From Herbidospora galbida (GTDB taxonomy: Bacteria > Actinomycetota > Actinomycetes > Streptosporangiales > Streptosporangiaceae), in contig NZ_SZQA01000009.1 of assembly GCF_005233835.1 (NCBI RefSeq), positions 1-64,000 of the forward strand: a DNA stretch of 64,000 nt, written 5' to 3'. Shown here in pieces: positions 46,802-64,000 of this stretch. Within the stretch, counting starts at the first letter, position 1. Every line of letters starts with the position of its first letter. The translations under genes and the position numbers were made by a program. The notes under the pieces were generated by a model. The model did not search any database and was not told where the DNA came from. It saw only the letters and a list, made by a program, of their open reading frames with translations.

Positions 46802-46975
46802 TCAGGCCGGACGGGCGCTCTTGGGGCGCATGTCCGTCCAGACCTCCTCGATGTGGGTCAGGCACTCCTCCCGGGTGCCCTCGAAACCGTCCGGGTGCCA
46901 GCCGTCGGGGATCTCCCGTCCGGCGGGCCAGAGGGAGTACTGCTCCTCGTCGTTGCGGACGACCAGGTGGGTCAC
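46802..46975 (-). CDS. MbtH-like protein
   Basis: From GTG 46975, with AAGGAG six bases upstream, the product has 57 residues. It carries the MbtH signature [10 protein letters not shown] near 8-17, a GWHPDG turn, and [10 protein letters not shown] near the end. MbtH proteins bind adenylation domains and are often required for their solubility and activity. The N-terminus is shorter than usual. It is the last gene of the NRPS operon and overlaps the methyltransferase by four bases. Confidence 0.93.
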
Positions 46976-47901
46976 GACGTGCTCCTTGCGGTGATGAGGG
47001 TGTGCGTGGGGGAACGGGTCAGATCGGTTCGGGTGACGTCGGCGGCGCCCGCCTCGCGGAGCCAGCCCTCCAGTTCGCCGGCCGTGTAGAGGCGGCCTCC
47101 CTGGGTGAGCCACAGGTTCAGGGCGAAGCCCTCGGTGAAGGCCTGGTCGGCCACGCCGCCGCGCGGGGTCGTCGTGGTCTCCAGGATGTGGACGTCGGCT
47201 CCCGACGCCACCGCCTCCCGCACCAGCCCCCGGGCCCGGTCGCGGGAGAAGCCGTGGACGACGTTGAACAGCAGCACGTGGTCGTAGCCCTCCAGCACCA
47301 GCGGCTCCGACAGGTCGGCCGCCACCAGCGGGACCGCGCTGGGCGTGCCCGGCAGGTCGACGACGACCGCCTCCAGGCCAGGCGTGGCGTCCTGGAAGGC
47401 CTGGGCGAAGACGCCGTGGCCGCCGCCGACGTCGGCCAGCCGGCCGGGGCTCATCGGGACCAGGCCGACGACCTCCTCGGCGAGCCAGCCCGCCAGGCCC
47501 GACTGCAACCGGTGGAAGACGGCCAGGGGCTCGGGCCGGGACGACAGCCAGTGGTAGAAGTCGGCGCGCGGGCGGCCGGTGGCCAGGCCGTCGTACAGGT
47601 CCCGCCAGAACTCGCCGATGATGGCTCCCCACAGGCGCAGCGGGGTGGCGTATCCGGCGTCGGTCCACATCGGCGACGCGCTGAAGACGTCGTCGGACCG
47701 GACGAGATAGCCGGTCGTCGTCAGCAGGTCGAGCAGGAGGGTGAGGCCCTCCTCGTCGGCGCCGGTCGCCTTGGCCAGGTCGGCAGGCGTGCCGGGGAGC
47801 GCGTTGAAGACGCCCAGCCGGACCGCCGCGTCGGCGGCGTAGAAGGACATCGCGCCGACGAGGTCGGTCGACGGGCCGGGGTCATGCGGTGGCAACGGCA
47901 T
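46972..47901 (-). CDS. SAM-dependent methyltransferase of the O-methyltransferase (acetylserotonin-type) fold
   Basis: The 309-residue protein has the helical dimerisation region ([19 protein letters not shown]) and the SAM motif [14 protein letters not shown] near 155-168. A His in the [11 protein letters not shown] region is in the place of the usual catalytic base. This fold includes O-methyltransferases and the C-methyltransferases that act on 3-hydroxykynurenine in sibiromycin-type pathways. Its place with kynurenine 3-monooxygenase in one operon makes an aryl target plausible. O- versus C-methylation cannot be told by eye. Confidence 0.87.
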
Positions 47902-49180
47902 CGGGCACCTCCTCGGTCTTCTTCGGGGCGGGTTCGCGCAGGAACAGCACGCGGACCGCGACCAGCAGCAGGATCACGGCGTCGGCCAGGATGACGAACG
48001 CGATCCCCCGGCCCTCGCCGGTGCCGATCAGCGAACCCACGCTGGAGGCGAGCGCGCCGTCGGGCTGCAGCAGCGGCCCGGCCACGTGCTCGGCCAGCGG
48101 CCCGGCGAGCAGGTAGGCGAACGGGGAGGCGATGCCGCCGATCGAGTGGACCGTCCCGAGGACCCGGCCGAGGCTGTCGGGTTCGATGCCCGACTGCAGC
48201 ACCGCGTTGCCCGAGCCCTGCACGACCGGCAGCGTGAACAGGAACGCCGCCGCCGCGAAGGCCACCACCCACGGGTCGGGGCGCACCGTGTGCAGCACCA
48301 GGAAGAGCGAGCCGAGCAACATGAACACGCCCATGCCGCGGATGCGCTTCTTCGGGCCGCCCCACACGCCCATCACCAGGCCGCCGAGGAACACCCCGGA
48401 CCCTCCGGCGAACATCAGCGCGCCCAGCACCGCCGGGGAGCCGAACGACAGGATCAGCGGCTGCACCAGCACCCCGGCCACGGCGAAGCAGAAGTTGTAC
48501 GCCGTGAACGTCAGCGTCAGCGACATCAGGTCGCGCCGCCGCCGCAGGTAGTGCCAGCCGTACGACAGGTCGGCCAGCGGCGCCTTCGCCGACCCGGCCC
48601 CGGGGGCCTTCACCACCGAGGCGGGCAGCTTCACGACCAGCAGCGTGGTCACCGCTATGGCGAAGGTCACCAGGTCGAGGACCAGCACGCCGGTCATGCC
48701 GATCGCGCCGAGCAGCGCGCCGGCCGCCAGCGGGGCGGCGATCTGGGTGGCCACGGTGATCTGCATGAGGCCGTTGGCGCGGGCGAGGTGGCGTTCGGGG
48801 ATGAGCAGCGGGGTCATCGCCTGGTAGGTCGTCATGTGCAGCGTCCCGCAGACGGCGCCCACGAGCGACCCGAGGCAGATGTGCCACACCTGCAGCGCGT
48901 CGTTGTAGAGCAGCAGCGCCTGCACGCCGGTGCTGACCGCCACGACGCAGTCGCTGATGATCAGGACGCGGCGCCGGTCGAACCGGTCGACGATCACCCC
49001 GGCGAACGGGCCGACCAGGATCGCCGGCAGCAGCCCCGACAGCATGACCAGCGCGAACAGGGTGGTCGACTCGGTGTTCTGGTAGACCCAGACGCCCAGC
49101 ACGAAGCCCGTCAGGCTCGACCCGACGCCGGAGACCAGCGACGACAGCCAGACGATGCCGAATCTCACGAGGTCAGGCAC
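47882..49180 (-). CDS. MFS exporter (EntS-like)
   Basis: The 432-residue protein from GTG 49180 (GGAGG just upstream) has about twelve hydrophobic segments. Between segments it has the MFS signature region PFAGVIVDRFDRRRVLII. It resembles the MFS exporters found with siderophore and peptide clusters. It overlaps the NRPS gene upstream and the methyltransferase downstream, so it likely exports the product and confers self-protection. Confidence 0.88.
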   Translation of the reverse strand: MPDLVRFGIVWLSSLVSGVGSSLTGFVLGVWVYQNTESTTLFALVMLSGLLPAILVGPFAGVIVDRFDRRRVLIISDCVVAVSTGVQALLLYNDALQVWHICLGSLVGAVCGTLHMTTYQAMTPLLIPERHLARANGLMQITVATQIAAPLAAGALLGAIGMTGVLVLDLVTFAIAVTTLLVVKLPASVVKAPGAGSAKAPLADLSYGWHYLRRRRDLMSLTLTFTAYNFCFAVAGVLVQPLILSFGSPAVLGALMFAGGSGVFLGGLVMGVWGGPKKRIRGMGVFMLLGSLFLVLHTVRPDPWVVAFAAAAFLFTLPVVQGSGNAVLQSGIEPDSLGRVLGTVHSIGGIASPFAYLLAGPLAEHVAGPLLQPDGALASSVGSLIGTGEGRGIAFVILADAVILLLVAVRVLFLREPAPKKTEEVPDAVATA

Positions 49181-52100
49181 ATCGCCTCCACGTAACGCCG
49201 GATGAGCGCCCGGTCGGCGGGCGGGCAGGTGATCCCGGCGGCGGTCAGCGTCCGCCGGGTGCGCGAACAGTCGAACCACGGCCGGGGGAAGACCGGCCGC
49301 TCCTCGGGGAGTTCGGTGACGAACGCCGCGAGCGGCAGGTCGGGCAGCCCGTCGTGGACGGCGGCCCGCCACTCCGGCCAGGCCACCAGCCGCACCCCGA
49401 GGGCCTCGGCGATCTCCGCGTAGGTGATCGTCGCCTCGTTGAAGTAGTGGTGGTCCTCCCCCGCGCCGTGCAGCACGTGGTGGACGATGCCGTCGGCGAC
49501 GTGGTCGACCGGGGAGACGTCCTCGTCGTAGGGCATGTCGGGGGCCATCCCGAGCCGCGTCATCGTGGCCAGCAGGCGGCTGAAGTAGTCGCCGTCGTTG
49601 CCCCAGCCGGTCCGGCTGTCGCCGCCGATCCGGGCCGGGCGGTGGATCGAGACCGGAATGCCGCGCTCCCGTGCCTGCGCGGCCAGCCGGTCGGCGACCC
49701 ACTTGGTCTGGTTGTAGCCGCCGCCCAGGCCGGCCGGGTCTTCCGGCACGTCGGCCTCGGTGATCCGGCGGCTCTGGTAGGCCTTGCCGAGATGGACCCC
49801 GAGCGTCGAGACGTGGTGGACGGGGACGCCCCCGCCCAGCGCCGACAGCCGCAGGACCTCCAGGGTGCCGCCGACGTTGACGTCCTTCAGCCGGTGGTAC
49901 GGCTCCGCGAAGTTGATCAGCCCGCCGTTGTGGCAGATCACGTCGACCCGCTCGGCGAGTTCGGCGAACTCCTCCTCCGACAGGCCGAGCCGGGGCGCGC
50001 CGAGGTCGCCGGGGATGCCGACGACCCGCGCCTCGGGCAGCCCTTGGGCGGCGAGCGCGGCCCGCACCCGGGCCTCGGCGGCGGCGGGGGTGTCGGCCCG
50101 GACGAGACAGAGCAGTTCCGAGACGGGGGCCAGCCGGGCGGCGAGGTGCGCCCCGAGGAAGCCGGTCGCGCCGGTAAGCAGGACCGTCGTCCCCGACCGC
50201 CTCCTCGGGACGGCCACCCGGATGTCGGCGGGCAGCACCGCCTCGGCGAGCAGGTCGGGTTCGTCCGAGGTCGCGTGGGTGCCCTCGATCGTGGCGGCGA
50301 GTTCGGCCAGGTCGGCGGTCTCGAACAGGGCGCGCAGCGGGAGGGCGACGCCGATCCGGTCCTTCAGGGCCGCCAGCACGCGGGCCGCGAGGAGCGAGTG
50401 GCCGCCGAGCTCGAAGAAGTTGTCCCGCCGCCCGACCCGCCGGTCGCCCGCGACGACGACCGACCAGACGTCGGCCACCGCCTGCTCGACCGGGGTCCGC
50501 GGGGCCTCGTACGGGGCCGACACGGTGACCTCGGGCAGGGCGGCCGTGTCGACCTTGCCGTGGCTGGTCCGCGGGACCGTCTCCAGCGCCACGAACACGT
50601 CGGGCACGAGGTAGTCGGGCAGCCGTTCCCGCAGGTGGGCACGGAGGTCGGAGTCCCCGGCGACGAACGCGACCAGGCGGTCGCCGACCGAGGTCACGTG
50701 GGCGTCGCGGACGCCGGGGTGCGCGGTCAGCGCCGCCTCGACCTCGCCCGGTTCGATGCGGTGGCCGCGCACCTTGAGCTGGCGGTCCTTGCGCCCCGCG
50801 AACTCGAAGCTCCCGTCGAGACGCCGCCGGACCAGGTCGCCGGTCCGGTACATGCGCGCCCCGGGCACTCCGGAGAACGGGTCGGGCCCGAACCGGTCGG
50901 CGGTCATGGCCGGCTGCCCCAGGTACCCCCAGGCCAGGCAGTCGCCCGCGAGGTGGAGTTCGCCGTAGACGTTGTCGGGGGCGAGCCCGCCGTGGCTGTC
51001 GACGACGTAGGCCCGCACGTGCGGCAGCTCGGTCCCGATGGGCAGGTGCAGCAGGCCGGTGGGCTCGGCCGCCGTGTGCGTGGTCGCGCACACCGTCGCC
51101 TCGGTCGGGCCGTAGTGGTTGACCAGCGGGGTGCCGGTCGCGGCCAGCCAGGTCTCCAGCGCCGAGGCGGGCACCGACTCGCCGCCGACCATCATCAGCC
51201 GGACCGGCCACTCGACCTTCCGCCCGGCCAGCTCGCCGGCCCAGCGCCGCCAGAGCGAGGCCGCCGTGTCGACGGCGGTGATCCCGTGGCGCTCGACGAA
51301 GGCCAGCAGCGCGTCCGCGTCGAGACGGGCCGGTTCGTCGTGCAGGACCAGCGCGCCGCCGGTGGCGAGCACCGGGAACAGGTCGCCGACGGACGCGTCG
51401 AAGGTGAGCGGCGGGATCATCAGCACCCGGTCGGCGGCCGTGAACCCGTGGACGTCCACGAACGCCTTCGTGAACCGCCGCAGCGACTCGTGGCCGACGG
51501 CGACGCCCTTGGGGGTGCCGGTCGAGCCCGAGGTGAAGATGACGTAGGCCAGCGAACTCGGCTCCACCGGAGCGTGGTCCCGGGGGTGGAAACCCTCGTG
51601 GTCGACGACGCCCACGGCGTTGGCCGCGTCGAGCAGCCGCGCCACGCGTTCGTCGGGGTGACCGGGGTCGAGCGGCAGGTAGGCGCAGCCCGCCCGGAGG
51701 ATGCCCACGATGGCGGCGACGGCGTCGGGTCCGGCGGGGAGGCGTACCCCGACGACACTGCCCCGGGTCAGCCCGGTCAGGTCGAGGGCGTCGGCCCGGC
51801 GCAGCAGCTCGCGATAGGTCACCGTCTCGGTGTCGGTGATCACGGCGGGTGCGTCGGTGGGGGTGATCTCCCAGGCCGGCGCTTCGCCGGAGAGCGCGCC
51901 GGCGGGGCGGGTCCGCAGCGGGACGTCCCAGATGCCCTGGTCGGCGTCGTCGACGGTCGCGCGCAGGACGGCGACCATGTGGTGGCCGATCGCGTCGATC
52001 GAGGCGGCGTCGAACAGGTCGGTCGCGTAGTCGATGTGGACGCCGTCGCCCTCGACCACGACCGTCAGGTCGAACCGGGCCGGCGGCGCGGACAGGTCGT

Positions 52101-53211
52101 AGGCCCGGCCGGTCAGCCCCGGCGCGACCTCGATCGCCCCGCCCGGCTCGCCGGTCACCAGCATGACCTGGAAGATCGGGTTGTGGCTGAGGTCGCGCCG
52201 CCCGCCGGTGAGCTCGACGACCGAGTCGAACGGCAGCGTGCGGTGGTCGAGCGCGGTCATGGTCGTCTCGCGGGCGAGCCGGACCACCTCCCGCAGCGTC
52301 GGGTTCCCGGTGAGGCGGGTGCGCAGCGCCACGGTGTTGACGAACATCCCGGCCGTGCGCTCCAGCTCGGGCAGCTCGCGGTCGCTGACGGGGGTGCCGA
52401 TGACGACGTCGTCGGTGTCGGCCATCCGGGCCAGCACGACGTTCAGCGCGGCCAGCACGACCATGAAGACGGTCGTCCGGTTGGCCTGCGCCCACGCCCG
52501 CAGCTCGCCGGCGAACCCGCCGGGGTAGACGACCGAGCGGCGGACGCCGTCGAAGGTCGGCCGGGCCGGGCGCGGCCGGTCGAGGGGCAGGTCGAGCAGG
52601 CCGCTGACGCCGTCGAGCCGCTGCGCCCAGAAGGCCCGGTCGGCCGCGCCGGTGTCGCGGGTCGCCAGCCACGCCGCGTAGTCGGGGTACTGCACCTGTA
52701 CGGGCGGCAGGCGCTCCCCCCGGTAGAGGGCGTAGAGCTCGTCGAACAGGATGCCGGTGGTCTCACCGTCGCACACGATGTGGTGCCAGCACATCGCCAG
52801 CACGTGCCCGTCGCCGTGGGGGATCAGCAGGACGCGCATCAGCGGGGCGCGGGCGAGGTCGAACCCGTACGAGAGGAACTCCTCGATGGTGCCCTCGGTG
52901 AAGAAGGGCACCTCGGCGGCCGGGACGACGTGCTGGTGGGGCACCCCGTCACGCACCACGATCGCGGTGCGCAGGGACTCGTGCCGGGCCACCAGCGCGT
53001 CGATCGCCCGGTGCATCCGGGGCACGTCGAGGTCGCCGGTCAGCTCGTGGGCCGCCCAGCACAGGTAGCGGTCGCCGTCGAACCCCGCCTGGTCGAGGAA
53101 CCACAGCCGTTCCTGCGACGGGGCGAGCGGCGCGTCGGAGCCCGGGGCGCGGCGCGGGATCCCGGACCGCTGCGCCGCGACCCGCGCCATGCGTTCGGAC
53201 AGTCTGCTCAC
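49165..53211 (-). CDS. NRPS, condensation-adenylation-thiolation-reductase (terminal module)
   Basis: The 1348-residue protein has a C domain (about 30-440, HHIVCDG active site) and an A domain (about 465-920: [38 protein letters not shown]). A T domain follows ([11 protein letters not shown], Ser near 975). A C-terminal thioester reductase has NADP motif LLTGATGFLGAHLAARL and YNQTKW. My eye-read A-domain code is D-A-G-D-M-G-H-V-C-K; I cannot assign a residue. The reductase replaces a thioesterase, so the chain is released as an aldehyde or, after a second reduction, an alcohol. Confidence 0.93.
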   Translation of the reverse strand: MSRLSERMARVAAQRSGIPRRAPGSDAPLAPSQERLWFLDQAGFDGDRYLCWAAHELTGDLDVPRMHRAIDALVARHESLRTAIVVRDGVPHQHVVPAAEVPFFTEGTIEEFLSYGFDLARAPLMRVLLIPHGDGHVLAMCWHHIVCDGETTGILFDELYALYRGERLPPVQVQYPDYAAWLATRDTGAADRAFWAQRLDGVSGLLDLPLDRPRPARPTFDGVRRSVVYPGGFAGELRAWAQANRTTVFMVVLAALNVVLARMADTDDVVIGTPVSDRELPELERTAGMFVNTVALRTRLTGNPTLREVVRLARETTMTALDHRTLPFDSVVELTGGRRDLSHNPIFQVMLVTGEPGGAIEVAPGLTGRAYDLSAPPARFDLTVVVEGDGVHIDYATDLFDAASIDAIGHHMVAVLRATVDDADQGIWDVPLRTRPAGALSGEAPAWEITPTDAPAVITDTETVTYRELLRRADALDLTGLTRGSVVGVRLPAGPDAVAAIVGILRAGCAYLPLDPGHPDERVARLLDAANAVGVVDHEGFHPRDHAPVEPSSLAYVIFTSGSTGTPKGVAVGHESLRRFTKAFVDVHGFTAADRVLMIPPLTFDASVGDLFPVLATGGALVLHDEPARLDADALLAFVERHGITAVDTAASLWRRWAGELAGRKVEWPVRLMMVGGESVPASALETWLAATGTPLVNHYGPTEATVCATTHTAAEPTGLLHLPIGTELPHVRAYVVDSHGGLAPDNVYGELHLAGDCLAWGYLGQPAMTADRFGPDPFSGVPGARMYRTGDLVRRRLDGSFEFAGRKDRQLKVRGHRIEPGEVEAALTAHPGVRDAHVTSVGDRLVAFVAGDSDLRAHLRERLPDYLVPDVFVALETVPRTSHGKVDTAALPEVTVSAPYEAPRTPVEQAVADVWSVVVAGDRRVGRRDNFFELGGHSLLAARVLAALKDRIGVALPLRALFETADLAELAATIEGTHATSDEPDLLAEAVLPADIRVAVPRRRSGTTVLLTGATGFLGAHLAARLAPVSELLCLVRADTPAAAEARVRAALAAQGLPEARVVGIPGDLGAPRLGLSEEEFAELAERVDVICHNGGLINFAEPYHRLKDVNVGGTLEVLRLSALGGGVPVHHVSTLGVHLGKAYQSRRITEADVPEDPAGLGGGYNQTKWVADRLAAQARERGIPVSIHRPARIGGDSRTGWGNDGDYFSRLLATMTRLGMAPDMPYDEDVSPVDHVADGIVHHVLHGAGEDHHYFNEATITYAEIAEALGVRLVAWPEWRAAVHDGLPDLPLAAFVTELPEERPVFPRPWFDCSRTRRTLTAAGITCPPADRALIRRYVEAMCLTS

Positions 53212-53855
53212 GAGGGCACCACGTCCCGCAGATGGGCGGGGACACGGTCGCCGAAGATCGCCCGGTACGCCGACACGTGCTGCTCGCGCGAGGTGAGGAA
53301 CGGCAGGTCGGTGCTGACCATGTGCCGCACGACCAGCATCGGGACCGGCGCCTCCAGCGGGCGCAGCAGCGGGTTCCACAGCCCGCCCTTGTCCGGCGGG
53401 CCGTCGTGGAACTCGCCGACCATGACCCCGGCGGGCACGTGCCGGTCCTTGAGGACCTCCTGGGCGGCGTCGATCAGGTCGAGCCGCCGGCCCGCGTCGG
53501 GGAACAGCACCAGCACCGCCGTGTGCATCGAGTCGGCGATCGACCGGGGGGCGAGCTCGCCGAACCACTGCCGGTACGGCTCCACGGCGGCGACCACCTC
53601 CTCGACGGTCTCCGGCCGTCCAGGGCGGATGGCGAGCAGGAACCGCCCCCGGTCGATGGAGCCCTGGGCGTACGGGCAGACCGGGCCGCGGCGGCCCAGT
53701 TCCGGGTGGGGGCGGCACAGGTACTCGCGCGCCCACGTGGTCACGGTGCGGAGCTGGCGGATGTACATGGCGCCCAGCGGGTGCAGCGGGCGGCCGCTCT
53801 CGACGTCCTTGACGTCGAAGAGGCGTAAGGTCGGCTCGTCGGGGTGGGTGATCAC
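53208..53855 (-). CDS. DUF6875-like protein within the NRPS operon
   Basis: From GTG 53855 the product is 215 residues. It contains REYLCRPHPELGRRGPVCPY near residues 40-59 and MVGEFHDGPPDKGGLWNPL near 150. I recognise this pattern, with lower certainty, as the DUF6875 family seen in natural-product clusters. It has two conserved cysteines and no signal peptide. Four-base overlaps on both sides tie it to the monooxygenase and the terminal NRPS. No biochemical role is known to me. Confidence 0.68.
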   Translation of the reverse strand: MITHPDEPTLRLFDVKDVESGRPLHPLGAMYIRQLRTVTTWAREYLCRPHPELGRRGPVCPYAQGSIDRGRFLLAIRPGRPETVEEVVAAVEPYRQWFGELAPRSIADSMHTAVLVLFPDAGRRLDLIDAAQEVLKDRHVPAGVMVGEFHDGPPDKGGLWNPLLRPLEAPVPMLVVRHMVSTDLPFLTSREQHVSAYRAIFGDRVPAHLRDVVPS

Positions 53856-55138
53856 TTCGGGTGCCTCCTGTCGCGGCGCCAGAGGAGGGCGGCCGCCAGC
53901 CCCACGGCCGCCGTCATCCCTCCCGCGCGGACGATCCGGTCCTGCTTTCGCGCACGCCGCAGCGCTTCGCCGTACGGCATGGTGGTGTGGCTGACCATCG
54001 TGTAGAGCGGTCGCCACATGTCGGGCAGCAGCCGGCTGAGCACGGTGTCCACCTGCTTGCGGGCCAGGTGGAGCGGGGAGCGCAGCCGGTCGCGGAGTTC
54101 CAGGAAGTTGTCGGCCGACAGGTCGGCCAGCACGTCGGTGTGCGGTTTCCTGCGCCGCTGGTACGCGGCGAACGCCGCGCCGAGATCGTCGGGGCGGGCC
54201 TCCACGCACTCGGCGAGGACGACGCAGTCCTCGAACGCCGAGTTCATGCCCTGGCCGTAGAAGGGGTAGACGGCGTGGCAGGCGTCGCCGATCAGCACCG
54301 CCCGGCCGTCCTCGTGCCACTTCGAGGTCCGCACCGTCACCAGGTGGCCGACCGGGTTGCGGGCCAGCTGCCCCGCCAGGTCGGGCAGGTCGGCGGCCGG
54401 GAGCACGCTCTTCACGAACGCGGCCAGGTCGGGCCGGGCGAGATCGTGGTGGTCCATGAACAACGTGCAGGTCAGCGACCCGTCGACGTTGGGGTGGGCG
54501 ACCATCAGGCCCTGGTCGCCGGGCCACACGTGCAGCGCCTCCAGCCGTTCGGTGTACGGCAGGTGCAGCTCCTTGTAGCCCCACGGCAGGAACTCCTGCC
54601 GGAAGTCGGCCGGCCGGCCGCGCAGGAGTTCGGCACGCACCGCGGAGAACGCTCCATCGGCGCCGACGATCACGTCGGGGGTGACGGTCTCGCCGCCCGC
54701 CCGGAACGACGGGGCGTCGCGGTCGATCGCGGTCACCGGGGTGCCGAAGAAGAACCGCACCCCCTGGAGCTTCTCCGCGTGCTCGACCAGGGTCCGGCTG
54801 AGGGCGTCGCGCCGGATCGAGTGGAGGATCTCGCCGGGGTCGCGCCCGTACGGGTGGAAGAACGGGCGGCCCTCCCTAGGGTGGACGTACCGGCCGCGCA
54901 TCGGGACGGTGTGGGTGCGCACCGCGTCCCACAGCCCGGCCTTGCGGAGGGCGCCGATCCCCCGGGCCGACAGGCCCAGGTTGATCGAACGGCCCTCGTC
55001 GGGGGGCGCGACCCGGGGGTCGGCCCGGCGTTCGTAGACGTCGACGCGGTGGCCCTGCCCGGCCAGGTACACGGCCAGCAGGGAACCCGCCAGCCCCGCA
55101 CCGACCACCGCGAAATGGATGCTCAGGTCGTCGCGCAT
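53852..55138 (-). CDS. Kynurenine 3-monooxygenase-like FAD enzyme
   Basis: The 428-residue protein has VVGAGLAGSLLAVYLAGQG at the start and EGRSINLGLSARGIGALR near 48-65. It also has GDACHAVYPFYGQGMNSAFED near 285-305 and NFLELRDR near 345. These are the hallmark blocks of kynurenine 3-monooxygenase, which makes 3-hydroxykynurenine from kynurenine with NADPH and O2. The C-terminus has a short hydrophobic segment MTAAVGLAAALLW before a basic tail. Within an NRPS operon it likely supplies a hydroxylated building block. Kynurenine-forming and kynureninase genes are not in view. Confidence 0.9.
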   Translation of the reverse strand: MRDDLSIHFAVVGAGLAGSLLAVYLAGQGHRVDVYERRADPRVAPPDEGRSINLGLSARGIGALRKAGLWDAVRTHTVPMRGRYVHPREGRPFFHPYGRDPGEILHSIRRDALSRTLVEHAEKLQGVRFFFGTPVTAIDRDAPSFRAGGETVTPDVIVGADGAFSAVRAELLRGRPADFRQEFLPWGYKELHLPYTERLEALHVWPGDQGLMVAHPNVDGSLTCTLFMDHHDLARPDLAAFVKSVLPAADLPDLAGQLARNPVGHLVTVRTSKWHEDGRAVLIGDACHAVYPFYGQGMNSAFEDCVVLAECVEARPDDLGAAFAAYQRRRKPHTDVLADLSADNFLELRDRLRSPLHLARKQVDTVLSRLLPDMWRPLYTMVSHTTMPYGEALRRARKQDRIVRAGGMTAAVGLAAALLWRRDRRHPK

Positions 55139-58032
55139 CAGCGCTCGGCCTCCTCCAGGATCTCGTCGACCGCGGCCGCGAACTCGGCGACCGTACGGCT
55201 GGCGAACAGGGTGCGCACCGGGACGACCAGGTCGACGGCCCGGCGGATGCGCGCCACCACGCGGGTGGCGAGCAGCGAATGCCCCCCGAGGGCGAAGAAG
55301 TCGTCGGTGGCCCCCACGCGCGGGGCCCCGAGCACTTCGCCGAATATCTGTGCGACCAGCTCCTCGGCGTCGGTCCGGGGGGCGACGTACGCCTCTCCGG
55401 CCGTGCCGGGGGCGGGCAGCGCCGTCCGGTCGAGCTTGCCGTTCCGGGTCAGCGGCAGCTCGGGCAGCGGCACGATGTGGCCCGGCACGAGGTGCTCGGG
55501 CAGGGTGCGCCGCAGGTGGGCGCGGAGACCGTCACGGTCGGGGTCGCCCGTCACGTAGGCGACCAGGGAGCCGTCGAGCGCGATCACGGCGGCGCTCCGG
55601 ACCGAGGGGAAGGCGGTCAGCGCGGCCTCGACCTCGGCGGGCTCTATGCGTACACCCCTGATCTTGACCTGGTCGTCGAGGCGGCCCAGGAACTCCAGGT
55701 CCCCGTCGGCCCGGACGCGGGCGCGGTCGCCGGTGAGGTAGAGGCGGCCGTTCGGGGCGGGGACGAACCGTTCGGCGGTCAGGCGCGGCCGGTTCAGGTA
55801 GCCCCACGCGACGCCCGCGCCGCCGATGGCCAGCTCGCCGGGAACGCCCGGCGGCACTTCACGTCCGGAGGGGTCGAGGACGGCGACCGTGGTGCCCGCG
55901 ACCGGGCGGCCGATCGACGGCCTGCCCGCGCCGAGGTCGGCGGCCGTGGCGATCACGGTGGCCTCGGTGGGGCCGTAGGTGTTGACCAGGCGGATGCGAT
56001 CGCCGAATCGGCTGCGCCAGCGCTTGACCGCCGAGGCGGCGACGGGGTCGCCGCCGAGGATGACGAGCCGAAGATTCGGCGGCCAGGCGATCTCGTCGAT
56101 CTCCTCGACGAGGGCATGCCAAAAGGAGGTCGGCAAATCGAGCACGGTTACTCGAGCCCCTTCGGAAGTGGTCAGGAAATCCGGCAGGGTGCGCCCGCCA
56201 TTGGGCAGCATCACGACCGTAGCCCCCGCTTCCAAGGATGGGAAGATCTCTTCCACGTGGGCGTCGAATCCCAGTTCAGAAAACTGCGCCACGCGGTCGC
56301 CGGGCTGCAGGTCATAGGCCGTGCGCATCCAGGAAACGCGTTCCGATACGCTTTGGCGATCGATCACGACACCTTTTGGCAGACCGGTTGACCCCGACGT
56401 GTAAAGCACATACGCCGGTAAGGAATTGTCGGAGATTTCTGTCAGAAAAGGCCCGCTCAAATCCCCGGGCCGCACCGCCGCAATTCCCGGTACGAAGCCC
56501 GCGCCACCCACCAGAATGCGCGCGCCGCCGTCACTGAGCAAGGTCGAGACGCGGGCGGCGGGAAGGCCCGGGTCGACCGGCAGATAGGCGGCTCCGGCCC
56601 GCCAGACGGCCAGCAGGACCGGCACGAGATCGAGGTTCCGCCGCAGGCTCACCCCCACGACGTCGCCGGGCCGCACCCCCCGCGCGACCAGCCCGGACGC
56701 CATCCGCGCGACGCGTTCGCCCAGCTCCCCGTAGGTGAGCTCGACGCCGTCGCAGGCGACCGCCGGGGAGGCGGGGTCGATCTCCGGTGGAGGCGTCTCG
56801 ACGTGTGACCCGACCGGCCGCGTGTCGAGGGCGCAGAACAGGTCGAGATCGCCGCAGCTCCGATGGGGGTGCGCCGCGACGTCGTCCAGGAGAACCCGGA
56901 ACCGCGCCGCGAACCGCTCCGCCGTCGCCCGGTCGAAGCGGCCCTTGTCGTAGGTGAGGACGAGCCCGGTCTCGGTGGGGCCCTGGTAGACGTCCAGGGA
57001 CAGGTCGCACTTGGCCGAGGCCAGCCCCGAGTCGTAGATCTCGACGTCGAGGTCGCCGAGGCGGGGGCGTTCGGTGGTGGTCCGGGTGTACTGGAACATC
57101 GCCTGGAACCGCACCCCGCCGGGCACCCCGTCCGGCACCGGGCCGTGGTCGAACGAGCGCACCACGGCCCCCCGCGCCCGGCGCAGCGCCTCGGTGAACG
57201 GCGGGTCGTCGCCCAGGTCGGTGCGGAGCATCGCCAGACCGGTGAAGTAGCCGACCAGGGGTTCGGTGTCGACGCGGTCGCGGCCGAGCACCGGAACGGC
57301 GACGCAGACGTCGTGCTGGGCGGCGTGCCGGGCCAGGAACACCTGGAAGGCGGCCAGCAGCACCATGAACAGGGTGCCGCGCTCCCTCCTGGCCAGGGCC
57401 TCCAGCCCGCCGACCAGCTCCGGTGGCAGGGCGGCGAAGATCTGGCCGCCCTGCCCGGTCGCCCGGGGCCGGTCGCCGGGCAGGTCGAGGACCGGCAGGC
57501 AGCGCAGCTCCTCGGCCCAGTAGCCGGGGTGCGAGCGGTCGCCGCGCGCGACGTGGTCGGCGAAGGTGATCGGCAGCGGCGGGAGCGCGCCGCCCCGGTA
57601 GAGGACGTCGAGCTCGCGCAGCAGCACGTCGACCGACCAGCCGTCGGCGGCGATGTGGTGGACGACGAGGCAGAGCACGTGGTCGTCGGGGCCGACCTCG
57701 ATCAGGGTGAACCGGGCGACCGGGCCGGCGGCCAGGTCGAACGGCCGGTTGGCGCGTTCGGCCACGGCCGCCAGGGGGTCGCCGGTCTCGATCCTCTCCA
57801 GGGCCGGCCCGGCCGGGGTGACCAGCCGGACCGGGTTCCCGTCGTCGTCTTCGGCGTACCTGCCGCGCAGCACGTCGTGCCGCAGGGTGATCGCGGTGAG
57901 CGCGGCCTCCAGCGCCGCCTCGTCGAGGCGGCCCCTGATCCGCAGGGCCACCGGCATGTTGTACGACGCGTCGGCCGGGTCGAGGCGCTGCAGGAACCAG
58001 AGCCGCCGCTGCCCGGCCGACAGCGCACTCAC
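55138..58032 (-). CDS. NRPS, condensation-adenylation-thiolation module
   Basis: The 964-residue protein has a C domain (1-410, HHIAADGWS), an A domain (about 425-850: [45 protein letters not shown]) and a T domain ([12 protein letters not shown]). Residues read by eye for the pocket are D-A-E-D-I-G-T-V-I-K. The Glu and Asp suggest a basic side chain such as lysine or ornithine; this is tentative. The stretch around 56090-56500, which covers the pocket, uses unlike codons, including a TTA leucine codon. GTG 58032 overlaps the upstream NRPS stop. Confidence 0.93.
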
Positions 58033-61031
58033 GAACCGGCCCGGCGATCGGCCACGTCGGCGGCGATCCCGGCCACGGTCGGCACGTCGAAGAACACGTA
58101 GAACGGGACGTCGACGCCGAGCCGGTCGTGGATGCGGGCGGCGATCCGCGCGATGGTCAGCGAGTGGCCGCCGAGCTCGAACAGGCTCTCGTCGTCGCCG
58201 ATGTGGTCGAGCCCGAGGACCTCCTCCCAGATCTCCCGGACGACCTCGGCCGTCTCATCGGACGCGGTCCCTGTTTCGTCGCCGAGAGACAGGTCGGGCG
58301 CGGGCAGCGCCGCCCGGTCGAGCTTGCCGTTCGGGGTCAGCGGCATCCGGTCCAGCGCCACGAACGCGCTGGGCACCATGTAGGCGGGCAGCACCCGCGC
58401 CGCCTCCCGCCGCAGGTCGCCGGCGGCGCCGACCGTGTAGGCGACGAGCTCCTCGTCGTGTACGGCCACCGCCGCCTCCCGGGCGTGACCGAGCAGCACC
58501 GCCTCGATCTCGCCCAGCTCGATGCGGTGCCCCCGGACCTTGACCTGGTCGTCGGTCCGCCCGAGGAACTCCAGCCCGCCGTCCCTGACGCGGACCCGGT
58601 CGCCGGTCCGGTACATCCGCGCCCCTTCGGCGCCGAACGGGCACGGCAGGAACCGCTCGGCCGTCAGCGCCGGCCTGCCCAGGTAGCCCCGGGCCAGCCC
58701 GGCCCCGGTGATGTACAGCTCCCCCGGCACCCCGGTCGGCACCGGCCGCAGGTCGTCGTCGAGCACCAGCAGCCCGGTCGCGGCCAGCGGCCCCCCGATC
58801 GAGATCCGGTCCGGGTCGGGCGGCACCTCCGCGACGGCCGACCAGATCGTCGTCTCGGTCGGCCCGTAGACATTGAGCAGCCGCGCCACCCTCGGACGCA
58901 ACCGCGTGGCCAGCGGCAACGGCAGCGCCTCCCCGCCGACCAGCGCGGTGACGGGCGCCTCGAACCCGGCGTCGGCCAGCAGCCGCCAGGTCGAGGGCGT
59001 GGCCTGGACGTGGGTGACCCCGTGGGCCGACACGAGCGCCCGGAGCGCCTCGCCGTCGGCGGCCTGCGCCTCGGTCGCCACCACGACCCGGCCACCGGTG
59101 ATCAGCGGCAGCCACAGTTCCAGGCCGGAGATGTCGAACGACAACGACGTGACCGCCAGCCACGTGGCCGAGGGGCCCGACCTGGTCTCGTCGCGCATGG
59201 ACAGCAGCAGGTTGGTCAGCGCGGCATGCCCGACCTCGACCCCCTTGGGACGGCCGGTGGACCCGGACGTGTAGATCACGTAGGCCCGGTCACCGAGGAC
59301 GCCGCCGTGACCGGCCGACCGGTCCGAGCCGTCGATGGCGGGCGCGGGCAGGTCGAGGGGGACTCTGACCGGACCGGACAGGTCGCTGCCCGCGTCGGCC
59401 AGCAGCGCCGTCGCGCCGCTGTCGGCGAGGACGTAGTCGAGGCGTTCGGCCGGATAGGCCGGGTCGAGCGGCAGGTAGGACGCGCCCGCCCGCCAGATGC
59501 CCAGCACGCCCGTGACCAGCCGCTCCGACCGGGAGGCCGAGATGGCCACCAGGTCGCCGGGGCGTACCCCCGCCCGCCTGAGGCGGTCGGCCACCGCGTC
59601 GGACCGCTCGATCAGCTCGCGGTAGGTGAGCCGGTTCTCGCCGACGACCGCGACGGCGTCCGGGGTCCGGGTGGCCTGGGCCGCCACCAGGTCGGGCACC
59701 GCCGACGCGCCCGGGTAGGCCCGGGTGGACCACAGGCCCGCCGGCTCTTCGGCCACGGGCAGCGCGGCGAGCGGTGCGGCCGGGTCGTCGGTGACGTGCC
59801 GCAGCACGTCGAGCAGGTGGGCGGCGACGCGCTCGGCGTCCTGGCGGGGCATCGACGCGGGCGGGAACTGGAGCATCACGCCGAGCCCGTCGGGGCCGTC
59901 GACCAGGTGGAACCGCAGGGCGTTGCGGGCGACGTGGTTGAACGCCACCCACGTCACCTCGGTCCGCAGGCCCGGGAACTCCGGGGGCGCGATCCGCCGC
60001 CGGTAGGTGAGGGAGACGGGGGCCAGCGCGATGCCGGGCCGCGTGCCGGGGGCGGCCCGGCCGAGGGGGACCTCGCGGACCCGGTAGAGCTCGCGCAGCC
60101 CGGCCCTGACCTGCCGGGCGTAATCGGTGAAGGTCAGGTCGGCCCGGGGGTCCGAGGTGAACGGCAGTTCGTTGACGTGGACGCCGATGCGCTCGCCCGC
60201 CCCTGCCTGGCGGGTGCCGAGGTCGAGGGCGGTGACGGGGTGGGCGTTGCCGTACCGGAACAGCATCGCGTGCACCGAGGCCACGACCAGCTCGAACCGG
60301 GTCACCCCGAGCTGGGCGGCGGCCTTCTCCAGGATCGGCTCGGTCAGGAAGAACTCGACCGACTCCCCCGGCTGGACCGCGTCGTCGGGCCGGTCGAGGC
60401 CCGGCAGCACGACGTCGGGGAACTCGGTCGGCCGCCCCGACCAGTAGGCCCGCGCGGCCGTCAGCCCCTCGGCGACCCGGCGGGCCTCGGCGGCGACGTC
60501 GAACGGCTCCGGCGCGGTCACCGGGACGGCCTGCCCGTAGAGCCGGGCCAGGTCGGCGACGAAGACGTCGGTCGAATGGCCGTCGAAGACCAGGTGGTGG
60601 GCCACGACCAGCAGCTCGTGCTCGGCCGGGCCGAGCCGGAACAGCGTGATCCGGGTCAGCGGCCCGGCGGCCAGGTCGAAGGGCCGCAGGATCGCCTCCC
60701 GCCGCGCGCCGGCCAATCGGTCGGGATCGGTCTCGATGATCTCGAAGGGCACCGGTGGCCCTTCGACCTGGTAGGGAGCGCCGGCCTCCTCGCGGACCGC
60801 CGCTCGCAAGGCGGGATGCAGGGTGACCACGCCCGCGCAGGCGTGGCGCAGCGCGTCCACATCGAGGTCACCGGAGAACCGGATCGCGAAAGGCATGTGG
60901 TGGACGGCCCCCGCGCCGCCGAGACGTTCGTTGAACCAGATGCCGCTCTGCGGCACCGAAAGTGGTACTCGTGACATTGCCTGCCCCAACGCTTCGCTTA
61001 TTTCGTGAGTATGACCAGAAATTGCATTCAC
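58029..61031 (-). CDS. NRPS, condensation-adenylation-thiolation module, predicted glycine
   Basis: The 1000-residue protein has a C domain (about 20-440, HHLVFDGHS), an A domain (about 460-890: IYTSGSTGRPKG, VYGPTETTIW, YRTGDRV, GRTDDQVKVRG) and a T domain (LFELGGHSLTIA). The pocket residues read D-I-L-Q-L-G-V-I-W-K, one change from the known glycine code DILQLGLIWK, so glycine is predicted. The start may be ATG 61031 or ATG 60977; the first 18 codons are AT-rich. It is the first gene of the eight-gene minus-strand operon. Confidence 0.93.
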   Translation of the reverse strand: MNAISGHTHEISEALGQAMSRVPLSVPQSGIWFNERLGGAGAVHHMPFAIRFSGDLDVDALRHACAGVVTLHPALRAAVREEAGAPYQVEGPPVPFEIIETDPDRLAGARREAILRPFDLAAGPLTRITLFRLGPAEHELLVVAHHLVFDGHSTDVFVADLARLYGQAVPVTAPEPFDVAAEARRVAEGLTAARAYWSGRPTEFPDVVLPGLDRPDDAVQPGESVEFFLTEPILEKAAAQLGVTRFELVVASVHAMLFRYGNAHPVTALDLGTRQAGAGERIGVHVNELPFTSDPRADLTFTDYARQVRAGLRELYRVREVPLGRAAPGTRPGIALAPVSLTYRRRIAPPEFPGLRTEVTWVAFNHVARNALRFHLVDGPDGLGVMLQFPPASMPRQDAERVAAHLLDVLRHVTDDPAAPLAALPVAEEPAGLWSTRAYPGASAVPDLVAAQATRTPDAVAVVGENRLTYRELIERSDAVADRLRRAGVRPGDLVAISASRSERLVTGVLGIWRAGASYLPLDPAYPAERLDYVLADSGATALLADAGSDLSGPVRVPLDLPAPAIDGSDRSAGHGGVLGDRAYVIYTSGSTGRPKGVEVGHAALTNLLLSMRDETRSGPSATWLAVTSLSFDISGLELWLPLITGGRVVVATEAQAADGEALRALVSAHGVTHVQATPSTWRLLADAGFEAPVTALVGGEALPLPLATRLRPRVARLLNVYGPTETTIWSAVAEVPPDPDRISIGGPLAATGLLVLDDDLRPVPTGVPGELYITGAGLARGYLGRPALTAERFLPCPFGAEGARMYRTGDRVRVRDGGLEFLGRTDDQVKVRGHRIELGEIEAVLLGHAREAAVAVHDEELVAYTVGAAGDLRREAARVLPAYMVPSAFVALDRMPLTPNGKLDRAALPAPDLSLGDETGTASDETAEVVREIWEEVLGLDHIGDDESLFELGGHSLTIARIAARIHDRLGVDVPFYVFFDVPTVAGIAADVADRRAGS

Positions 61032-61111
61032 TTGCTAGATACTTGTGAGGATTCGTCTGGTCTGATTTACTCCCCTTCCGACCGTCTGCTGTACGCGGAA
61101 GAGGTGGGCCC
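61032..61111. promoter_or_regulatory. Divergent promoter region of the NRPS cluster
   Basis: These 80 bases separate the two NRPS transcription units and are visibly AT-richer than their surroundings. I see no convincing -35/-10 pair or strong palindrome. Promoters for both directions must lie here or inside the 5' ends. No regulatory gene is seen beside it. Confidence 0.6.
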
Positions 61112-64000
61112 ATGACCGCGACCCTCCCCCACTTACTTCGAGCGAGGGCCGCCGAACAACCCGGAAGAACTGCGCTGATCAGCACAGACGGCCGGGAGCT
61201 GACGTTCGGCGAATGGGACGCGGGGGCCGACTCCGGGGCACACGCCCTGCTCGGCAAGGGCTTGCAACGAGGCGATCGGGTCGGTCTGCTCTTCGAAAAC
61301 GATCGGTGGTTGGATTTCGCCATCGCCTGCATGGCTGTTTTGCGGGCCGGTGGCGTCGCCGTGCCACTGCCCGTCCGGCAGTCGGCGGCGACCCTGAAGG
61401 TGATGACCGACGACTGCGCGGCACGGTGGGTGCTGACCGAGACACCATCGGGGGCACCGTCGGGGGCGCCGTCGGGCTCGGGGGTGCCCGACGTCGGCCT
61501 CTCCCCCGACGATCCCGCCCAGATCCTCTACACCTCGGGCACGACCGGGACGCCGAAGGGCGTCATGGCCACCCACGCCAACCTGGCCTGGGGGCACTCC
61601 GAGAAGCCCGCCTTCCGGGCGTTCGGCCACTCGGAGCACTTCGTGCACGCGTTCCCGATCGGCACCAACGCCGGGCAGATGATGCTGGTCAACACCCTGA
61701 CCGCGCACCCGGCGGCGGTGGTGGCGGGCCGCTTCGACGCGGCGGAGTTCTGCGGCCTGATCGAGAGGTTCCGCGCCGGGACGGTGTTCGTGGTGCCCGC
61801 GATGGCGACCGAACTCCTCGACTCGGGCGCCTGGCGCGGCCACGACCTGTCGAGCGTGGTACTGCTGAGCTCGTCGGCCGACGCGCTGCCGCCCCGGGTG
61901 GCGGCCGGCCTGCCGGAGGCCTTCCCGAAGGCCACGATCGTCAACTACTACACCTCGACCGAGGCGGTCCCCGCCCAGACGACGATGATCGTCGACCCCC
62001 GCCGCCCCGACTCGGTCGGCCGCGCGACCGCCCGCGGCGACCTGATGATCGCCGACGAGCAGGGCACGCCGCTCGCCCCCGGCGAGGTCGGCGAAGTGTG
62101 GCTGCGCGCCCCCGCCGCCCAGCGGACCTACTACGGCGACCCCGGCACCAGCGCGAAGACCTTCAAGAACGGCTGGACCCGCATGGGCGACCTGGGCCGC
62201 CTCGACGCCGACGGCTACTTGTACCTGGTCGGCCGCGAGAGCGACGTGGTCAAGTCGGGTGGCCTCAAGATCTCCCTGCCCCAGGTCGAGACGGCCGTCC
62301 GCGAACACCCGGCGGTAGCCGACGCGGCCGTCGTCGGCCTGCCACACCCCACGATGGGCCAGATGATCGCCGCCGCGGTGGTCAGAAAGCCGGCACGAAT
62401 CTTTTTGGAAGCGCTCACATCAGGGGGCGAGGTCCTCACCGCAGACGGGTTGCGCACTTTTCTTCATCAGCGGCTTGCCCGTAACGAGGTGCCCTCCCGT
62501 TTTGTCTTCGTCGACGCGCTGCCCCGCAACGAGCTCGGGAAGGTCGTCAAGGCCGAGGTCCGGGCGCTGTTCGCGGTCGCCGGGCCCGCCGGTCGGCCCT
62601 TGGAGAGCGCGGAGGAGCGGGCCCTGGGCCGGTTGTGGACCGGTGTGCTCGGGGTGCCCGCGACCAGTGCGGACGACGACTTCTTCGCCCTCGGCGGGGA
62701 CTCCCTCCGGGCCGCCCAGCTCGCCGCACGGGTGGCCGAACGGTTCGGGGTTCCCGTCGAGGGGACGTTCGCGTTCGATCGGCCCGTGCTGGCTGAGCAG
62801 GCCGGCCAGATCCGAGCCGCGGTCGCGACCGTCTCCCACGCCGGCGGCGCGGCGGCGGAGGACGGCGCCCTCTCCGGAGTGCAGGCCCACTGGTGGCGGT
62901 GGATGCACGCCTCCGGAGAGCGGCGTCACATGCCGCCCGTGCACGTCGCGGTGCGGGTCCCGGGTGGGCTCGATCTCGGCGTGCTGGGCCGGGCGGTGGC
63001 GGAGCTCGTCCGGCGGCACGACAGTCTCCGGACGGTGTTCCGCGATCCGGGGGTGGGGCCGGTGCTGGCCTCCCTCGACGTCCCGATCGCCGTCCACCGG
63101 CGGGAGAGCGAGGCCGAGGCTGCGCTGCTGGCGGCCGAGCGGGTGCGGGCGCCGTTCGACGTCGAGAACGGGCCGCTGCTGCGGGTCGAGGTGATCGAGC
63201 TGCCTCAGGGGTGTGTGCTGGTCGTCTCCGTCCACCACCTGGTGTTCGACGGCGGGTCGGCCACAGTGCTGCTGCGGGAGCTCGGCGTCCTCTACTCCGC
63301 CTTCCGGCACGGTGCGCCGTCGCCGCTGCCGCCCGCCGTCTCCTACGGCGACGTCGTCGCGTGGGAACGCCTCGAATGGGCGCGGCACCGGCCCTGGTGG
63401 GAGGCCACCCTGGAGGGCGCTCCGGCGTCTCTGGAGCGGCTTCCCGGGCGGGCCCGAGACGTCCGGCTCTACCTGGCCGACGCGCATCGGTTCGCGGTCC
63501 CGGACGTCCGGGAGCTGGCCCGCTCGCGGGGGGCCACGGTGTCGATGACGCTGGCGGCGGCCTGGGCGCTGACCCTCGGCGCGTGGGCGCGGGCCCCCGA
63601 GCTCGTGGTCGCCACCCCGGTCAGCGGGCGGTCGAAGCCCGGGTTCGAGAACGCGGTGGGCTGCCTGTTCCGGTGGAACCTCATCACCGTCCCGGGAACG
63701 GGCGCGCTGCCCGACGTGGTCGACCACGTCAGGCGGGAGTCGCTCGCGGCCGCCGAGCGGCAGTTCCACGACTGGGGCCACCTGCACGCGGCGGTGCCGT
63801 TCCCGGCGTACTTCCGGTTCGAGAGCTGGGGACACCCGGCCCACCTGCCGGGAGTGCCGTCGGAGGAGTTCGACGTACCGGCCGGGCCGATCATGGAGTG
63901 GACGATGCCCGACGACGACCCCGACCTGCACCCGCCGGAGATCCTGATCAGCGAGTCGCACGACGGGACGCTGCGCGGCCAGCTCATCTACAACCGGCAC
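61112..64000 (+). CDS. NRPS loading protein: acyl-ligase-type adenylation, thiolation, condensation (continues past the window)
   Basis: From ATG 61112 an open frame of 963 codons runs off the right edge. Residues about 1-500 form an acyl-AMP ligase domain (LYTSGTTGTPKGV, NYYTSTEA, MGDLGRLD, RESDVVKSGGLKISLPQVE, RNELGKVVK). A T domain follows (FFALGGDSLRAA, Ser near 531), then a C domain (VHHLVFDGGS near 706). At the site of the Asp that binds alpha-amino groups the sequence reads AFPIGTNAG, so it probably activates a carboxylic acid without an alpha-amine. This protein should start the chain. Confidence 0.9.
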   Translation, partial: MTATLPHLLRARAAEQPGRTALISTDGRELTFGEWDAGADSGAHALLGKGLQRGDRVGLLFENDRWLDFAIACMAVLRAGGVAVPLPVRQSAATLKVMTDDCAARWVLTETPSGAPSGAPSGSGVPDVGLSPDDPAQILYTSGTTGTPKGVMATHANLAWGHSEKPAFRAFGHSEHFVHAFPIGTNAGQMMLVNTLTAHPAAVVAGRFDAAEFCGLIERFRAGTVFVVPAMATELLDSGAWRGHDLSSVVLLSSSADALPPRVAAGLPEAFPKATIVNYYTSTEAVPAQTTMIVDPRRPDSVGRATARGDLMIADEQGTPLAPGEVGEVWLRAPAAQRTYYGDPGTSAKTFKNGWTRMGDLGRLDADGYLYLVGRESDVVKSGGLKISLPQVETAVREHPAVADAAVVGLPHPTMGQMIAAAVVRKPARIFLEALTSGGEVLTADGLRTFLHQRLARNEVPSRFVFVDALPRNELGKVVKAEVRALFAVAGPAGRPLESAEERALGRLWTGVLGVPATSADDDFFALGGDSLRAAQLAARVAERFGVPVEGTFAFDRPVLAEQAGQIRAAVATVSHAGGAAAEDGALSGVQAHWWRWMHASGERRHMPPVHVAVRVPGGLDLGVLGRAVAELVRRHDSLRTVFRDPGVGPVLASLDVPIAVHRRESEAEAALLAAERVRAPFDVENGPLLRVEVIELPQGCVLVVSVHHLVFDGGSATVLLRELGVLYSAFRHGAPSPLPPAVSYGDVVAWERLEWARHRPWWEATLEGAPASLERLPGRARDVRLYLADAHRFAVPDVRELARSRGATVSMTLAAAWALTLGAWARAPELVVATPVSGRSKPGFENAVGCLFRWNLITVPGTGALPDVVDHVRRESLAAAERQFHDWGHLHAAVPFPAYFRFESWGHPAHLPGVPSEEFDVPAGPIMEWTMPDDDPDLHPPEILISESHDGTLRGQLIYNRH

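Follow-up and report, generated by a model that had tools for sequence, protein, structure and literature searches.

Introduction

Two classes of nonribosomal peptide synthetase (NRPS) lines that end in a reductase (R) domain bear comparison with the locus described here. Pyrrolobenzodiazepine clusters encode kynureninase for the anthranilate unit and use a two-module line of the order A-T / C-A-T-R, where A, T and C stand for adenylation, thiolation and condensation domains. Saframycin-type lines start with an acyl ligase (AL), comprise few modules and end in C-A-T-R, with an aromatic amino acid that is tailored before loading; this unit is derived from tyrosine, and a C domain performs a Pictet-Spengler reaction. 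The present locus lies at the right-hand end of a 64,000-nucleotide stretch of Herbidospora galbida DNA (contig NZ_SZQA01000009.1, positions 1 to 64,000; hereafter the window), carried by a contig of 200,631 bases in a genome of 8.3 Mb. It combines an NRPS line with a homologue of kynurenine 3-monooxygenase (KMO), a DUF6875 protein and a methyltransferase. In contrast to the pyrrolobenzodiazepine class, the line is composed of a ligase-T-C protein and three C-A-T modules, and kynureninase is missing from 41 neighbourhoods of related KMO genes. Whereas saframycin-type lines draw on tyrosine, the aromatic unit here is probably derived from tryptophan and selected by an A domain with the code DAGDMGHVCK. 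We see about an even chance that the cluster makes an N-acylated tripeptide aldehyde with an oxidised, methylated, tryptophan-derived last residue, X.

The NRPS skeleton has been listed before. Komaki et al. (2015) reported nrps-2, with the presumed product x-Gly-Lys-x, in all five Herbidospora type strains (PMC4599437). Its arrangement (A/T-C; C/A-gly/T; C/A(lys)/T; C/A/T-last) matches the present line in domain order, in the Gly and Lys predictions and in the genus. It differs in that the last domain is named a thioesterase (TE), and the available table lists neither tailoring genes nor a product and leaves the last residue without a prediction; the accessible part of the text contains no word beginning with kynurenine or reductase (PMC4599437). 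The preliminary description of the window, made from the sequence alone, had called the cluster apparently undescribed, which therefore does not apply to the skeleton but does apply to the tailoring genes and the product, as far as that part of the paper goes. Searches of open-licence PubMed Central papers brought up no product that would match. For H. daliensis, coumarins, other aromatic compounds and seco-triterpenes have been reported, and neither tryptophan nor kynurenine occurs in the accessible text (PMC8951269).

DUF6875 proteins are reported, with reference to a preprint, to bind heme and to oxidise L-tryptophan, C-7 hydroxylases being among them (PMC13307353). In the zigralone pathway, deletion of either zigI, encoding a DUF6875 protein, or the methyltransferase gene zigH results in a demethoxylated product, and C-7 hydroxylation by ZigI with subsequent O-methylation has been proposed (PMC13307353). 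These 'cytochrome P422' tryptophan oxidases, ZigI among them, share the Pfam family, a partner methyltransferase and a tryptophan-derived substrate with the present system; in the present system, however, DUF6875 is linked to a KMO homologue and an NRPS reductase module. In the case of BE-13793C, the available part of the paper states that the tryptophan hydroxylase gene was not found by its authors (PMC7024260).

The KMO homologue and its conserved cassette

The cluster is made up of a plus-strand starter gene and a minus-strand operon extending from position 61031 to 46802 (Table 1). The eight genes of this operon, of which adjoining ones overlap by 1 to 20 nt, encode in 5' to 3' direction C-A-T, C-A-T, KMO, DUF6875, C-A-T-R, a major facilitator superfamily (MFS) transporter, a methyltransferase and an MbtH-like protein, and all families named in the preliminary description were recovered with Pfam and NCBIfam. 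The starts of the DUF6875, C-A-T-R, MFS and MbtH genes were chosen within longer open frames.

The reaction chemistry of KMO is well known. The ten best matches of the window protein in the PDB are all KMOs (best E 1.6e-75), which upholds the original call, and Pfam detects an FAD_binding_3 domain; the best NCBIfam model, VioC, lies far below its cut-off (143.5 versus 760 bits). The protein retains the residues aligned to R83, Y97, N368 and Y403 of Pseudomonas fluorescens KMO (chain 6fox), which we take to be residues of the substrate pocket. A search covered 341 genomes of the family to which Herbidospora belongs, 127 of which matched at E 1e-60. The best 41 matches, seven from Herbidospora and 34 from 27 other genomes (34 genomes in total), share 54% identity or more with the KMO of the window and are referred to as the clade, whereas the next among the matches listed reach at most 49%; ordinary KMOs among these matches are 44-49% identical. 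In a maximum-likelihood tree, a 100/100 branch separates the 41 clade KMOs from 21 ordinary ones. The pocket positions are retained on both sides of this branch: R83 and Y97 in 41/41 and N368 and Y403 in 40/41 clade members, and all four in 21/21 ordinary KMOs.

The neighbourhoods of the 41 genes were analysed with flanks of 1.9 to 21 kb and with thresholds set in the script. DUF6875 adjoins 40 of the 41 clade KMOs at a distance of at most 318 bp, and an R domain (38/41), a methyltransferase (38/41) and an MFS transporter (37/41) are located within 10 kb. An AL and a Gly-type A domain are each found in 22 neighbourhoods, a Lys-type A domain in 13. Tryptophan 2,3-dioxygenase (TDO) stands near a single clade KMO (G305:C16; G, C and L numbers denote genomes, contigs and loci), and no kynureninase match was obtained in any of the 41 neighbourhoods searched, so that neither an anthranilate route nor loss of the amino-acid side chain is encoded there. 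Two of the three loci lacking R domain and methyltransferase, G008 and G010, are truncated by a contig end that lies 1.9 to 2.5 kb away from the KMO gene. The third, G305:C16, also lacks DUF6875.

Primary-metabolism KMOs, which belong to the same sequence family, have a different gene context. Among 20 ordinary-KMO control loci, hand-picked from the matches listed to spread over genera and thus not random, nine have TDO and five kynureninase beside the gene, 11 have either and nine neither, and DUF6875 is found beside none. Within the clade, gene order differs among the loci, which shows that the association is not mere synteny: the genes for KMO, DUF6875, C-A-T-R, MFS and methyltransferase have been kept together as a cassette.

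All seven Herbidospora genomes examined carry KMO and DUF6875. In each of the six named relatives the eight-gene operon could be mapped together with some or all of the starter gene, and in a genome scan DUF6875 was 89-98% identical in six species; given this recurrence, the grouping of the genes is far beyond chance. The DUF6875 gene of H. sakaeratensis (L057:10001-10705) contains an insertion of 20 residues. It appeared as two pieces in the search, but a frameshift was ruled out, the insertion being in-frame.

The recurrence of the cassette bears on the notion that KMO and DUF6875 have an accessory or degradative role with no relation to the peptide, and that the product is an acyl-Gly-Lys aldehyde ending in an ordinary amino acid, for instance a protease inhibitor. 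An operon could carry such passengers, and two cassettes, L178 (G176:C8) and L180/L055 (G150:C20, Nonomuraea endophytica), have no KMO in the stretch examined, a finding that also counts against the pathway proposed below. Both retain DUF6875, MFS and the C-A-T-R protein with the same code, and since both genomes hold clade KMOs elsewhere, supply of KMO in trans is possible. However, around DUF6875 at the 38 uncut loci, R domain and methyltransferase are found within 10 kb in 38/38 and MFS in 37/38 cases, and the linkage persists in several gene orders together with one near-invariant code. An accessory role is thus considered very unlikely.

The locus G305:C16 (L106) consists of a clade KMO, TDO at a distance of 2.9 kb, Trp_halogenase, a TauD dioxygenase and MbtH, and perhaps makes a halogenated hydroxykynurenine. 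Its KMO branches from within the clade in the maximum-likelihood tree, though its branch is long, and its position near TDO and Trp_halogenase suggests that a clade member acts on kynurenine-type substrates. The window KMO may hydroxylate L-kynurenine.

The NRPS line and the last adenylation domain

The motif HHxxxDG is preserved in all four C domains and the Ser in all four T domains. The R domain contains TGATGFLG and YNQTK (NADPH motif and YxxxK) and exceeds the cut-off of the thioester reductase model TIGR01746 (247.7 versus 213.35 bits), which bears out the reductive release and, with the module order C-A-T, C-A-T, C-A-T-R, the three extending modules proposed at the outset. The codes of modules 1 and 2 (Table 1) presumably denote Gly, as in the preliminary description, and Lys or a Lys-like residue. 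Both readings agree with the predictions for nrps-2 in the available table (PMC4599437).

Of 40 distinct loci with an R module, 39 carry DAGDMGHVCK in the A domain preceding the reductase, and the remaining one, G196, carries DAGDTGHVCK; the count is a union by hand of 24 loci and 16 more, with G008 and G010 unreadable due to contig ends. The code is preserved even in the most divergent cassette (L116) and in the KMO-less cassettes L178 and L180. To our knowledge, it is not the code of any known residue. Asp235 in this domain implies an alpha-amino acid as substrate. Since the unusual A domain linked to the cassette is the last one and has Asp235, the unit derived from tryptophan most likely forms the end of the peptide and does not serve as the starter. 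The upstream part, by contrast, differs among relatives, which have AL and Gly modules, C-T proteins lacking an A domain, or orphan C domains, indicating that the chemistry held constant is that of the C-terminal residue and of its release by reduction, not that of the N-terminal portion.

The starter protein was correctly recognised as a loading A-T-C protein lacking the amino-anchoring Asp: Pfam confirms the domains, the H. solisilvae orthologue has Asn at position 235 (code NAMFSSYPA), and both ligases share the motif PIGTNAGQ. The best PDB matches are the fatty-acyl ligases FadD5 (6.1e-54) and FadD8 (9.8e-50), and the ligase is probably of the fatty-acyl type.

The preliminary description had instead envisaged a tryptophan-derived aryl starter. 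In a pathway of the pyrrolobenzodiazepine or actinomycin type, KMO and methyltransferase would provide 3-hydroxy-4-methylanthranilate for this purpose. KMO, methyltransferase and R domain are indeed shared with pyrrolobenzodiazepine clusters, the methyltransferase has a weak PDB relative in SibL, and aryl ligases are among the close matches of the starter. However, the absence of kynureninase, the best ligase matches being fatty-acyl, the unusual conserved code with Asp235 in the last module, and three elongation modules instead of the two-module line argue against it, and we regard this pathway as most improbable. A likely tryptophan-derived unit and the methyltransferase are retained from the preliminary description, its interpretation being partly supported, whereas the aryl starter is disfavoured by the missing kynureninase and by Asp235; the ligase comparison alone would be insufficient for this.

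C-like proteins that stand alone as orphans are a recurrent feature of the relatives; one such gene family is present in 9 of the 22 genomes clustered. The N. endophytica orphan has a Condensation match of 27.2 bits, just under the Pfam cut-off of 30.6; at this locus (L055), an aldolase-looking gene is located upstream together with the orphan C-like gene.

DUF6875 and the probable oxidation of tryptophan

The DUF6875 protein matches PF21780 with 208.9 bits (cut-off 24.5) and is thus a plain member of the family, where only a DUF6875-like protein had been noted. Its AlphaFold model (pLDDT 83, pTM 0.84) has no Foldseek match at E 0.001; the top three matches are chains of AglA (E 1.9e-3, 2.0e-3 and 1.9e-2), with weak likeness at probabilities of 0.97, 0.97 and 0.82, a TM score of 0.37 and a root-mean-square distance (rmsd) above 8 Å. 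A sequence search against the PDB gave nothing meaningful and no match to AglA. AglA, according to the accessible part of its description, is a thiolate-heme enzyme whose ligand is Cys44 and belongs to the YqcI/YcgG arginine hydroxylases, so that its substrate differs (PMC12866846). In DUF6875, Cys60 is present in 65/65 aligned sequences and could be the axial heme ligand. His178, found in all of the first 14 sequences, was considered as a universal ligand and rejected; it occurs in 39/42 cassette DUF6875s and 9/23 others, and because it is not kept in the wider family, Cys60 is preferred. A class-wide search for DUF6875 at E 1e-40 had little to tell, matching 3 of 394 genomes, the own genome included. 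Two Herbidospora genomes have a distant second DUF6875 (28-34% identity) within a different NRPS cluster, L121 (G001:C5) and L122 (G003:C9).

The requirement of zigI for the methoxy group of zigralone is counted in favour of tryptophan oxidation by DUF6875 (PMC13307353), the reaction being either opening of the indole or hydroxylation of the ring. A further reading, less likely than not, is that the cassette DUF6875 is a thiolate-heme enzyme which would open tryptophan to (formyl)kynurenine in place of TDO and hand it directly to KMO, so that the cassette would make a methylated 3-hydroxykynurenine monomer with a dedicated A-domain code, to be reduced to the aldehyde. Ring opening itself is likewise put well short of an even probability. 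It is supported by the following points: the KMO homologue, if a true KMO, requires a kynurenine; DUF6875 partners the clade KMOs where ordinary KMOs often have TDO; the sole clade locus lacking DUF6875 has TDO; and G022, which carries a cassette, gave no match to TDO, kynureninase or indoleamine dioxygenase (IDO) in a 98% complete assembly. G020 and G021, relatives in the genus of G022, likewise have no TDO match.

Several findings weigh against ring opening or against the pathway proposed below. C-7 hydroxylation is the DUF6875 activity that has been named in print (PMC13307353). Of the 34 clade-KMO genomes, 29 were searched for TDO and kynureninase, and 28 of these have TDO at another place in the genome, and a further search found it in the other five, so that kynurenine could come from primary metabolism; kynureninase is also encoded elsewhere in 28/29. 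Neighbouring genes are an imperfect guide, since nine of the 20 ordinary KMOs have neither TDO nor kynureninase beside them. Moreover, the KMO-linked DUF6875s do not form one clade, three changes being needed in a midpoint-rooted tree with many long branches; they gather in one part of it, and G210b groups with four unlinked sequences (94/87). This tree includes 20 non-KMO loci, that is, the matches without a clade KMO there minus G261, G312, G186, the second G241 and the two Herbidospora paralogues; the latter were then added to it. Finally, DUF6875 and TDO occur fused in a single protein, which suggests that the two act in sequence, hydroxylation preceding opening. One fusion of 494 aa (L196:6282-7766, G236) contains both Pfam domains; a second (L192, G123) was identified by open frame and tblastn. 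A simple exchange in which DUF6875 equals TDO is weakened by these fusions, the KMO-less cassettes and the tree.

These findings give room to two hydroxylation routes. In the first, DUF6875 hydroxylates tryptophan at C-7, the methyltransferase generates 7-methoxytryptophan, and the KMO homologue oxidises the indole again, X being an oxidised 7-methoxytryptophan. This route conforms to the zigralone proposal and gene deletions (PMC13307353), to the HDW-type His216 found in 39/39 methyltransferases and to the order of reactions implied by the fusion. It is at odds with the KMO retaining the equivalents of all four P. fluorescens residues, with the KMO of the DUF6875-less clade locus standing near TDO and a tryptophan halogenase, and with the midpoint-rooted tree, whose first split separates the TDO-fused DUF6875s from those linked to KMO, although the branches there are long. 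We consider it possible but doubtful. In the second, C-7 hydroxylation by DUF6875 is followed by opening to 3-hydroxykynurenine by the TDO of the genome, and the cluster KMO adds a second hydroxyl group to give dihydroxykynurenine. The wide occurrence of TDO in cassette genomes and the natural fusion are in line with such a sequence, whereas G022 has a cassette and lacks a match to TDO; dihydroxykynurenine is therefore an unlikely precursor.

The same H. galbida genome also contains a separate TDO-kynureninase-KMO operon of the ordinary type (G000:C1:400602-403970, L120) and an IDO-like match (E 1.2e-26; G000:C84:230527-231114) within an open frame of 1242 codons.

Methyltransferase

His216 of the methyltransferase is present in 39/39 aligned homologues and corresponds to the HDW-type His seen in O-methyltransferases such as AlpH. 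In the enzymes dealt with in the accessible part of a recent study, selectivity for O versus C methylation depends on the position of the substrate (PMC13109631), and either O or C could be the target here.

Proposed pathway

The sequence shows the domains and how they are linked, and it shows that the code and the KMO residues are conserved; from this we infer substrates, order of tailoring, position of X and final structure as follows. The ligase-T-C protein would start the chain with a simple carboxylic acid, fatty or otherwise, that it activates; module 1 would add Gly and module 2 Lys or another basic residue. Tryptophan would be oxidised along the kynurenine branch by the DUF6875 heme oxidase and the KMO homologue, and methylation of the new phenol by the methyltransferase, at O or C, would give the 3-hydroxykynurenine-type alpha-amino acid X. 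The last module would select X and its reductase domain release the peptide aldehyde, which may cyclise to an imine or be reduced to an alcohol; in a kynurenine aldehyde, closure to a seven-membered benzazepinone is chemically possible. The MFS protein would export the product, which is most likely acyl-Gly-Lys-X-aldehyde, or the corresponding cyclic imine or alcohol, with X a methylated amino acid of the 3-hydroxykynurenine type.

Some features of the line do not fit this pathway smoothly. Aryl ligases follow closely behind the fatty-acyl matches of the starter (feruloyl-CoA synthetase 3.4e-48, salicylate-AMP ligase 1.5e-44), which makes the ligase matches alone a weak point against an aryl acid. 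The line contains four C domains where three condensations are needed; cyclisation of the product might be the task of the final one, in analogy to the saframycin lines. In addition, the code readings rest on homology, and the PDB relatives of the methyltransferase are weak (MmcR 8.5e-7, SibL 3.7e-4).

Table 1. Genes of the NRPS cluster, with positions in the window.
Feature	Position	Strand	Evidence
Starter protein, acyl ligase-T-C, 982 aa	61112-64060 (60 nt past window end)	+	Pfam
NRPS module 1, C-A-T, predicted Gly	58029-61031	-	Pfam; code DILQLGVIWK
NRPS module 2, C-A-T, predicted Lys or other basic residue	55138-58032	-	Pfam; code DAEDIGTVIK
KMO homologue, DUF6875-linked clade	53852-55138	-	PDB matches, tree
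DUF6875 protein	53208-53855	-	PF21780, E 8.3e-62
NRPS module 3, C-A-T-R, predicted reductase release	49165-53211	-	Pfam, NCBIfam; code DAGDMGHVCK
MFS transporter, probable export or self-protection	47882-49168	-	Pfam, NCBIfam
S-adenosylmethionine (SAM) methyltransferase (Methyltransf_2 and Dimerisation)	46972-47901	-	Pfam
MbtH-like protein, A-domain chaperone	46802-46990	-	Pfam

Genes beside the cluster

Next to the starter gene, three ABC-transporter-like genes (two permeases and one ATPase) are located on the minus strand at 64178-66846, followed to the right by sugar-related genes, both groups being named from their first residues. Homologues of the ABC genes adjoin the same cluster in G008 and G010. 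As the further sugar gene is also shared there, their presence may reflect ordinary synteny.

Implications

The locus represents a reductase-released peptide cluster of its own sort, with a monomer not assigned to any known residue, and the recurrence of its core genes in related soil bacteria points to an uncharacterised natural product family. The near-fixed unusual code in 40 loci would predict a new monomer and, in the family to which Herbidospora belongs, a new group of reactive peptides of the aldehyde or imine type. With TDO replacing DUF6875 in one locus, fused to DUF6875 in another and absent from one cassette genome, and with a KMO partner whose chemistry is well known, the cassette offers a natural test of the function of the DUF6875 heme enzymes.

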